In this document: piece after piece, positions 1 through 8,400 of the stretch
Layout: the number at the start of each line of letters is the position of its first letter
How positions within the stretch are numbered: the stretch's first letter is position 1
Assembly: GCF_014822185.1 (NCBI RefSeq)
Contig: NZ_QVLR01000079.1
Span: 1 to 64,000 of the forward strand
DNA from: Azoarcus sp. Aa7
Lineage (GTDB): Bacteria > Pseudomonadota > Gammaproteobacteria > Burkholderiales > Rhodocyclaceae
Direction: 5' to 3'
Length of the DNA: 64,000 bases
Notes under the pieces: model-generated
What the model saw: only the letters and a program-made list of their open reading frames with translations
Database searches by the model: none
Told to the model about the DNA's origin: nothing
Program-made: the position numbers and the translations under genes

Positions 1-119
1 TCGCTCCACGCTTCCTCCCCACGCTCAGTCGCCCTCACGCAGTTGCGCTTCGCTTCGTTCGCTGTGATCAACTTACGGCGGGACTTTCACCCGCAAGAGT
101 GCGCCCATGCTGGGCGCAC
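1..119 (-). mobile_element. Group II intron, 5' end (partial, runs off left edge)
   Basis: Read on the minus strand from 119 downwards, the sequence starts with GTGCG, the usual 5' boundary of bacterial group II introns. It forms a 9 bp hairpin (GTGCGCCCA, loop GCA, TGGGCGCAC; 119-99). A second short stem follows, GCGGG-TGAAAG-TCCCGC, with the GUGAAAGUCC-like segment typical of domain I. No protein gene explains the stretch. The putative splice point lies one base after the T-tract of a Rho-independent terminator (121-149), the kind of site preferred by group IIC introns. The reverse transcriptase and domains V/VI would lie beyond the left edge, so completeness cannot be judged. Confidence 0.7.
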
Positions 120-120
120 C

Positions 121-149
121 AAAAAAAGCGGGGCGCCAAGCGCCCCGCT
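121..149 (-). terminator. Rho-independent terminator of the host-attachment gene
   Basis: On the minus strand, AGCGGGGCG and CGCCCCGCT pair as a perfect 9 bp stem with a 5-base loop (127-149), followed by seven T residues (127-121). It lies about 70 bases after the stop codon of the gene at 218-658. A second GC-rich hairpin (157-177, GGGACCG/CGGTCCC) lies between them. The intron-like element begins right after the T-tract. Confidence 0.85.
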
Positions 150-217
150 GCTCTTCGGGACCGCTCTTCACGGTCCCATCGTCTCCGGAAGAGAGACGCT
201 CGAAAAATCGGTCGGAA

Positions 218-5468: not shown

Positions 5469-8400
5469 ATGAATTCACTGGACTGGTGTCGCCCCGACAG
5501 GTTGCGTGCAAGCGTGGCGAAGTTGTGCGCCGGGCTCGGGGTCGTCCTGACGGCTGGCCTCGTATCGCTCCAGCCGGGCGCTCTCCACGCGGAGGAGGTT
5601 CCTGCCGGGGGAGTCGCACACGATCCGGTCGAGTTCGCCGTCCTGTCCTTCAGTCCGCTGGAGGAAACCCGCGCGCGCTGGCAGCCGCTCGTCGAATACC
5701 TGAATGGCGCGGTCGAGGGCGGGCGCTTCGTGCTGCGCGTGCATCATCTCGACGATCTCGTCGCGGCACTGGCGGACGGGCATATCGATTTCGTGCTTGT
5801 GAACCCCGCGCTGTACGTGCAACTGACCTACGAGCACCATCTGTCGTCCCCGCTCGTCACGCTGGTGAACAAGGAAGGCGGCGTGCCGGTAAGCGCGTTC
5901 GGCGGCGTCATCTTCACCCGCGCCGACCGCTCCGACATCGATTCCTTTGCCGATATCGGTCGCGTCCGTGTCGCCACCGCGGGGCGTGCCGCATTCGGTG
6001 CTTACCAGATGCAGGTGGCCGAGCTGCTGCGCGCCGGCGCCCGTCCGCCGCGTGAGCATCTCCTCATCGAAACCGGGCAGCCGCAGAACAAGGCCATCGA
6101 TGCTGTGCTGGAAGGCAGCGCCGACGTCGGTTTCGTCCGCTCCGGCCTGATCGAATCGCTCGTGCGCCAGGGGCGGCTCGACCCTGCAAGCCTCAAACTC
6201 ATCAGCGTGCGGCGCTACCCCGGTTTCCCCTTTCCGGTCAGCACGCGTCTGTATCCGGAATGGCCAGTGGTCGCGATGCCGCAGGTGCCCCACGATCTCG
6301 CCCGGCGCGTGACTGCGGCGCTGCTCGCCTTGCCCCATGACGGCGCAATTGCCGACGCTCTACGGATCTCCGGCTTCACGATTCCGGGCGATTACCGGCC
6401 GGTCGATGACCTGCTGCGCGAACTGCGGCTGCCGCCTTTCGACCGGGCGCCGGAATTCACGCTCTTCGACGTCTGGCGGCGCTGGAAACCCTATGCCGTC
6501 GCGCTGCTGCTGGCAGGCTTCGCGCTCGCTGCGTTCGCGACCTTCCGCCTCGGCTGGATCAACCGCCGCCTTGCCCGCGCGCAACAGGAAAGCCAACGCC
6601 TCGCGGCGAACCTTTCGCAGGCGCAGTCGGTGGCGCGGATAGGCAGCTGGAACCTCGACGCGGGAAGCAACACGCTCGTGTGGTCGGACGAGACTTACCG
6701 GCTGTTCGGCGTGCCGGCCGGGACGCCCGTCACATACGAGGACTTCCTGCAGTTCATCCATCCCGACGACCGGGCCGCGGTGGATCGGGCCTGGCAGGTC
6801 GCCCTGCAAGGTGCGCCTTACGACGTCGAGCACCGCATCCTGCGCAATGGCGGAATCGCATGGATGCAGGAGCGTGCGGACCTGCGCTTCGACGCGAACG
6901 GCAAGCTTCTCGGGGCCATCGGCACGGTCCAGGACGTCACCGCGCGCAAGCTCGCCGACGAGGAATTGCGCAAGCTCTCGCTCGCCGTCGAGCAGAGTCC
7001 GGAGTGCATCTTCATCACCGACCCGGACGGAAACATCGAATACGTGAACGACGCGCTGGTGCGCATCACGGGTTTTTCCCGCGACGAGGTGCTCGGGTGC
7101 AATCCGCGCATCTTCAAATCGGGCAAGACTTCGTCCGAAACTTTCGGCGAGATGTGGCAGATGTTGCAGCGTGGCGAGATCTGGCAGGGCGAGATCGTGA
7201 ACCGGCGGCGCGACGGCAGCGAAATCATCGAATATTCGATCATCGCGCCCGTGCGGGAGTCCGACGGCACCGTCAGCCATTACCTCGCGATCCAGCAGGA
7301 CATCACCGAACGCAAGGTGGCCGCCGAGCGCATCCATCATCTCGCCTTCTACGACGAGCTGACCGGGCTGCCGAATCGCAGCCTGCTGATCGACCGTCTC
7401 ACGCTGGTGCTGGCCTCGCGCCAGCACCAGGGCTACAGGGAGGCGCTGCTGCTGTTCAACATCGACCGCTTCAAGGTCGTCAACGACGCGCGCGGTAGTG
7501 TGCTCGGCGACGCGCTCCTGAAGGCCGTGGCCGTGAGACTGCGCGATGTCGTGCGCGAAGGCGACACCGTGGCGCGCCTGGCCGGCGACGAGTTCGCCCT
7601 GATGCTGCCCGTGGTCGACCGCACGGCCGAGGCCGCCAGCCGGCATGCGCTACAGGTCGCCCGCAAGATCCGGTCGGTTCTGGAAACCCCGTTCGAGCTG
7701 GGCGGGGAGACGGTACGCATCACGGGCAGCATCGGCATCACGCTGTTCCCCGAAGAAGACAGCGACACGCCGAGCGAAATCCTGCGCCGCGCCACGACGG
7801 CGCTGCATCGAGCCAAACAGGGCGGTGGAAGCCACCCCGCATTCTTCGAAGCCAGCATGGGCGAGACGGCCGCCGAGAGCTTCCGCATCGAGCGGGAATT
7901 GCGTGCCGGCATTCCGTGCGGCGAACTGCGCCTGTTCCTCCAGCCGCAATTCAGCGCCGCCGGCACCATGGTCGGCGCGGAAGCGCTGGTGCGCTGGCAG
8001 CACCCGCAGCGCGGACTGGTGCCTCCGGGCGACTTCGTGCCCATCGCGGAAGAATCGGATCTCATCGTCGAGTTGGGCATCTGGGTCATGAACGAGGCCT
8101 GCCGACTGATCGCGGCTGCGGCGAGGGACGGCTTTCCGCTCGCGCTGTCGGTGAATATCAGTCCGAGGCATTTTCGCAAGCCCGAATTCAGTTCCTGGGT
8201 GCGGGAGGTGCTCGACAGGACCGGTGCCCAGCCTGCACGGCTCACGCTCGAGATCACGGAGGGGCTGATCATCGACAACATGAGCGACGTCGTCGCGAAG
8301 ATGAACGAACTGTCGGCCCTCGGCGTCCGTTTTTCGATCGACGACTTCGGTACGGGCTACTCCTCGCTCGCCTACCTCAAGCGCCTGCCCATCGATGAAC

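Follow-up and report, generated by a model that had tools for sequence, protein, structure and literature searches.

Background

Insertion after terminators was reportedly described for group II introns by Robart et al. in 2007. According to the accessible part of PMC4424553, introns of the IIC class insert at intrinsic terminators and the corresponding class C maturases lack an endonuclease domain. The accessible part of PMC10190682 describes the E.r. IIC intron-maturase holoenzyme on a DNA stem-loop, with four contiguous EBS1-IBS1 pairs and an extra discontinuous pair, and an intron named A.v.I2 appears in the accessible part of PMC7161350. Among the part of the literature matches listed, no title or abstract opening concerned the intron described here in Aromatoleum or tandem insertion of IIC introns.

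Here we examine a 64,000-nt stretch of the draft genome of Azoarcus sp. Aa7 (the window; contigs of this genome, G000, are designated by C-numbers, the window lying on C79). Read on the minus strand, the first 119 nt of the window almost certainly form the 5' end of a mobile group IIC intron that is present in at least eight copies. The assignment to class IIC is supported, at the level of sequence comparison, by the likeness of the maturase, the preference for terminators and a covariation of four bases between EBS1 and IBS1. It is a known kind of element and nothing in it departs from known IIC biology: with the introns described in the accessible part of PMC4424553 it has in common the GTGCG start, the ribozyme domains, an endonuclease-free maturase and insertion at terminators, and it departs from what is described there solely in its host lineage and in its EBS1 sequence. 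The current understanding of IIC introns is left as it was.

Results and discussion

The intron 5' end and its insertion site

An initial annotation of the window had proposed a group II intron start directly behind a terminator with a 9-bp stem and seven T's on the minus strand. The terminator and its seven T's are present, but the stem, AGCGGGGCGC-TTG-GCGCCCCGCT, folds with 10 bp (-21.7 kcal/mol; matched by 1 of 200 shuffles) and takes up the first T as a paired base. After a single G comes the start proposed in that annotation, one base past the T-run, with GTGCG at 119-115 and then the predicted hairpin and second stem, namely GTGCGCCCAGCATGGGCGCAC, which folds as a 9-bp stem-loop, and a 5-bp stem (Table 1); the boundary itself was set by relatives and empty sites. 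Taken alone the 119-nt 5' fold has no exceptional stability (z -1.46; 17 of 200 shuffles fold as well), and structure by itself is therefore no proof: it is repetition, homology and insertion sites that carry the case.

Table 1. Features at the left end of the window (positions are those of the window)
Feature	Position	Strand	Basis
Group IIC intron, 5' 119 nt	1..119	-	repeats in own genome; Rfam D1-D4 match in C62; same start in relatives; empty sites
Intron 5'-terminal stem-loop, GTGCGCCCA-GCA-TGGGCGCAC	99..119	-	fold; same or near-same sequence in relatives
Intron stem-loop, GCGGGTGAAAGTCCCGC	78..94	-	sequence and fold; putative domain I assignment
IBS1, last four exon bases TTTG	120..123	-	complementary, with one G.T, to EBS1 CAGA read in C62
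Intrinsic terminator, 10-bp stem (149-140/136-127), T-run (127-121) and exon G	120..149	-	fold; intron-free in relatives
Host_attach family gene, 146 aa	218..658	-	PF10116, 138.7 bits; its terminator is the intron target

The window gave no Rfam match at gathering thresholds, and at a lax threshold a weak match to group-II-D1D4-4 over positions 1-96 (20.7 bits against a gathering score of 49, E 0.092), because only 119 intron nt lie inside it. Its start coincides with the end of C79 (G000:C79:1) in a 107-contig draft, so that this contig holds no sequence further to the left. That the visible 119 nt stay below every Rfam gathering score would also be expected of a repeated intergenic element of unknown kind, REP/MITE-like or a structured small RNA, beginning with GTGCG by chance; however, the copy in C62 runs on into Rfam group II domains and the start of a maturase frame, and relatives contain complete introns with a reverse transcriptase (RT), which leaves such an element a vanishingly small probability.

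The placement of the insertion downstream of a host-attachment gene was accurate, the PF10116 gene being separated from the intron by the terminator. As this gene keeps its terminator, the insertion probably does little harm. The stretch from its stop codon to the terminator contains a further pair of hairpins (window 157-198, minus strand), which are well kept across the genus (the same region in L088-L097 and L100-L103) and of which the second displays, by eye, apparent compensatory changes (GGGACCG/CGGTCCC, GGGGCCG/CGGCCCC, GAGGTC/GACCTC). The pair has no Rfam match at gathering thresholds and is possibly a 3'-UTR RNA.

Copies of the intron in the Aa7 genome

The sequence at the window start is found again at eight further sites in the genome, giving nine matches in all. 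Six of these other copies are 98-100% identical (C45, both ends of C66, C62, C84 and C18), and the matches in C28 (89%) and C51 (73%, decayed) are weaker. The seven 5' ends, with that of C79 included, are identical over all 115 shared intron nt, and by inspection each of the seven lies behind a different hairpin and T-rich tail, with an exon that always ends in TTTG before GTGCG. Six of the seven halt at a contig end 115-123 nt into the intron, which we infer to be the behaviour of the assembler at a collapsed repeat. The longest copy, that of C62, has 556 intron nt visible and matches RF02001 (group-II-D1D4-3; 103.5 bits, gathering 32), thereby displaying the domain I-IV signature, as well as RF01998 (group-II-D1D4-1; 43.6 bits, gathering 35); it also encodes a homologue of maturase residues 1-59 (71% identity, E 4e-17). 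Thus the Rfam group II models that are silent at gathering thresholds on the window do recognise the intron in C62. The 564-nt C62 match had suggested group IIB, and this was rejected as the frame starts at about position 380 and the remainder is coding.

When the 3' end of an intron from a relative was used as query, eight 3' ends were recovered at a 95% match, each of them at the end of a contig, together with a weaker match inside C28 (the other six of the 15 matches had E > 0.05). These eight share 121 identical nt and diverge beyond; the 3' exon opens with C in seven of them and with T in the eighth, and the C63 end encodes the maturase C-terminus (DRLGVPRLS-stop). Since seven 5' ends stand against eight 3' ends, one copy is incompletely seen. 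When the 15 flanks were queried against seven relatives, five of the seven 5' ends were paired with a 3' end (C79-C63, C66-C59, C62-C92, C66-C14 and C18-C28 end), C63 being the partner of the window copy; no partner emerged from this comparison for the 5' ends of C45 and C84 or the 3' ends of C9, C1 and C39. The expected continuation to the left is hence absent from C79, which ends there, but can be followed in the 556 nt of C62 and in the 3' partner C63. Likewise, the RT/maturase with a YADD motif that was expected there is found in the full copies of relatives, and its first 59 residues in C62, but the RT core is missing from the draft assembly of Aa7 (0 matches to PF00078).

The last 78 nt of the 3' ends form two hairpins, with a UA left unpaired close to the terminus, and this domain V-VI fold is far more stable than expected (z -5.25; 0 of 200 shuffles as good). 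At all eight 3' ends we found a domain V followed by a domain VI with a bulged A, both the triad, CGC (in GAACCGCCC), and the branch-point A being assigned by eye. The domain V sought under the initial annotation is thus present at eight contig ends, but the Rfam model for domain V, RF00029, did not pick it up at any of them, in a run in which 150 of 267 candidates were scored, nor, at E up to 1, in the introns of relatives at five loci. As the model is silent on these introns, domain V is identified here from fold and position.

With regard to the window copy, as distinct from the family, a reading compatible with the main one is that it lacks the ORF or carries an internal deletion and was mobilised in trans, with maturase supplied by another copy. 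Such forms do exist: C28 has an ORF-less one of 408 nt, G120 one of about 0.6 kb, and G008 a pair with the same internal deletion; the interior of the window copy lies beyond the contig end. Against this, the maturase frame can be seen to start in C62 and to end in C63, and none of the eight 3' ends differs from the one in C63, so that the copies look like recent full-length sisters; we consider a deleted window copy rather unlikely.

The C28 copy (L015:2703-3110, minus strand; G000:C28:8702-9109) is an ORF-less intron with 89% identity at its 5' end and 82% at its 3' end. It has a G in place of the assigned branch-point A and ACTGCCC for ACCGCCC in domain V, and is probably inactive on account of these changes. 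It starts one base past a match to RF02278, a Betaproteobacteria toxic small RNA (L015:3111-3176, minus strand; 61.8 bits, gathering 50). Elsewhere, a weak RF00029 match at L017:3600-3671 (G000:C56:43599-43670; 34 bits, gathering 40) may be what is left of domains V and VI of a different group II intron; no match to the G008 maturase turned up in L017 by tblastn.

Complete introns and maturases in relatives

The 564-nt C62 piece is matched in 39 of 121 genomes, Aa7 included (E up to 0.001, in some cases over short stretches only), and in 247 plasmid records (E up to 1e-5). Full introns of 1828, 1841 and 1880 nt are present in G008, G050 and G120, and the start sequence is the same in relatives. 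Their full copies encode an RT/maturase of about 456 aa with a YADD motif, in a frame that begins about 380 nt into the intron. Four such maturases of 455-456 aa (from G008, G050 and two plasmids) score 401.9-420.5 bits against TIGR04416, and the only Pfam matches of the G008 protein are PF00078 (RVT_1) and PF08388 (GIIM), with no endonuclease domain. The class C architecture of RT and X domain without endonuclease is thus present in relatives; the Aa7 genome shows residues 1-59 and the C-terminal end.

The RT of GsI-IIC is the enzyme of a thermophile. Among proteins of solved structure it is the best relative of the G050 maturase (PDB 6ar1; 452.5 bits over residues 48-452), with divergent sequence, followed by 7uim (330.1 bits), LtrA (139.4) and 6me0 (126.4). 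We take 7uim to be the structure from the work on the E.r. IIC holoenzyme. The intron of Azotobacter vinelandii CA (L218) is 88.8% identical to that of Aa7 over the first 349 aligned nt, its frame is 68.6% identical to the G008 maturase over 456 aa, and it too lies behind a hairpin and T-run.

Several copies in relatives have altered interiors. In G008, the copy at L053 (G008:C37) is broken by about 1.5 kb with a 436-codon open stretch, presumably an IS110-type transposase, and those at L054 and L055 have a common internal deletion of about 537 nt. The copy at L063 (G120), of about 0.6 kb, is without the RT frame, and that at L069 (G026), where 579 nt separate the intron start from domain V, is probably ORF-less too.

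Empty sites and the preference for terminators

As for strains without the insertion, the Host_attach gene was matched in all 16 other genomes of the genus, and relatives have the gene and its terminator with no intron. The intron was absent downstream of the gene in 11 of the 11 genomes read out of these 16; five gave no downstream reading as the start motif was absent, of which three, shown separately, are also intron-free and two were unread. Uninterrupted target sites were found in genus relatives for four copies, the window site among them, and the flanks join in them without duplication or loss: C79/C63 in G015, and C62/C92, C66/C59 and C66/C14 in G002, the last with one T fewer in the run. 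The C18/C28 site is adjacent in G005, but too divergent for an exact junction. The C79 site in G015 reads exactly TTTTTTTG^CCTGC and is the only exact one of seven relatives; the tail differs in the other six (G016 and five more).

Using the first 43 bases of the intron as a pattern, we obtained 118 matches in at least 117 stretches of named genomes; there were no duplicates, and three matches were dropped (two with less than 50 nt upstream, one with an N), leaving 115 insertions. A hairpin score of at least 12 near the junction together with at least five T's in the last 12 bases was found in 108 of these 115 insertions, among the matches listed, as against 25 of 6000 positions drawn at random from these loci; a hairpin alone was found in 112 of the 115, likewise among the matches listed, as against 454 of 6000 control positions. 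Six of the seven exceptions still have an inverted repeat by eye, and the seventh (L216) lies behind the end of another intron. An earlier run on the 80 loci among the matches listed had given 75 of 79 against 20 of 3897. The IIC-like preference for terminators surmised from the single site in the window therefore extends to all seven copies of Aa7 and to these wider insertions.

The failure of RF00029 on this intron might suggest a group IIA or IIB intron lying behind terminators by chance. Such an origin is hard to reconcile with a maturase that is nearest to GsI-IIC and far from LtrA and 6me0, with Pfam matches that include no endonuclease domain, with a frame beginning about 380 nt into the intron and with the count of insertions behind a hairpin and T-run, and we hold it to be very improbable compared with a IIC intron.

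The EBS1-IBS1 landing code

The EBS1 loop was read at [C/T]GGGC-NNNNNN-CC and compared, as the complement, with the exon end. In Aa7 it could be read in C62 only, as CAGAAA. The G at position 120 is exon base -1 and pairs with the C of EBS1, which accounts for the one-base gap in the initial annotation. A set of 49 insertions with 25 distinct extended loops, among the matches listed, paired at positions -1 to -4 with frequencies of 0.93, 0.99, 0.88 and 0.91, against 0.54, 0.46, 0.67 and 0.62 in shuffles, and showed no clear excess at -5 (0.74 against 0.72) or -6 (0.75 against 0.69). This set derives from 107 introns, from which 57 were dropped (loop missing through a contig end or the pattern, wrong loop, or N) and the duplicate L111 was left out. 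In a second set, the 43 of the 115 insertions among the matches listed that gave a loop, with 25 distinct six-base loops, the corresponding values were 0.93, 0.94, 0.83 and 0.79, against 0.60, 0.55, 0.61 and 0.51 in shuffles, with 0.80 against 0.80 at -5 and 0.80 against 0.75 at -6. The two sets overlap, and the shuffle statistics ignore kinship among the introns. The covariation between EBS1 and the exon spans positions -1 to -4 only, a short EBS1-IBS1 pairing, and covers exactly four positions, as do the contiguous pairs of the E.r. IIC holoenzyme in the accessible part of PMC10190682. A natural collection of EBS1/target pairs thus recovers the four-base landing code of IIC introns from genome sequence alone.

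By analogy with established IIC biology, the following course of events may be proposed. The full element would be of about 1.8 kb, as in relatives, and would comprise a ribozyme and, encoded between domains I-III and V-VI, the RT/maturase of about 456 aa without an endonuclease domain. The intron RNA and maturase would recognise the terminator hairpin in DNA, EBS1 (CAGA) would pair with TTTG, the four bases that close the T-tail, and the intron would reverse-splice directly behind these, with reverse transcription then completing the copy; the inserted element would presumably be removed from transcripts by splicing. For splicing and retromobility the indications are indirect, namely that the copies have identical ends and that empty sites exist. 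Copies of this intron explain why many contigs of the draft end where they do, and what is missing there.

Tandem introns

Among the loci examined there are two head-to-tail intron junctions, in L051 and L216, and a decayed one in L158. In plasmid 2 of Polaromonas sp. JS666 (L051:4001-7715) two IIC introns lie head to tail, the second starting at 5833, exactly past the domain VI hairpin at the 3' end of the first, and the EBS1 of the second (ATCG) is complementary in four of four bases to the end of the first (CGAT). In L216, a Rhodoferax MAG, EBS1 CAGA matches by eye two of the four exon bases, so that the idea of landing on introns derives from one case. It is conceivable, as a tentative possibility, that one IIC lineage uses a modular code in which recognition of the hairpin is fixed and the four EBS1 bases drift, variants landing on tails that match, and that the JS666 intron might be specialised for the ends of other introns.

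A search of 369 genomes of the class with the tandem-junction pattern gave two matches, with no intron sequence around them by eye, which were taken as chance. The Polaromonas tandem-junction piece has matches in 373 plasmid records, 230 of them from Escherichia; in those listed the match consists of two segments inside a span of about 480 nt, and they perhaps represent one widespread ORF-less IIC intron and not tandems.
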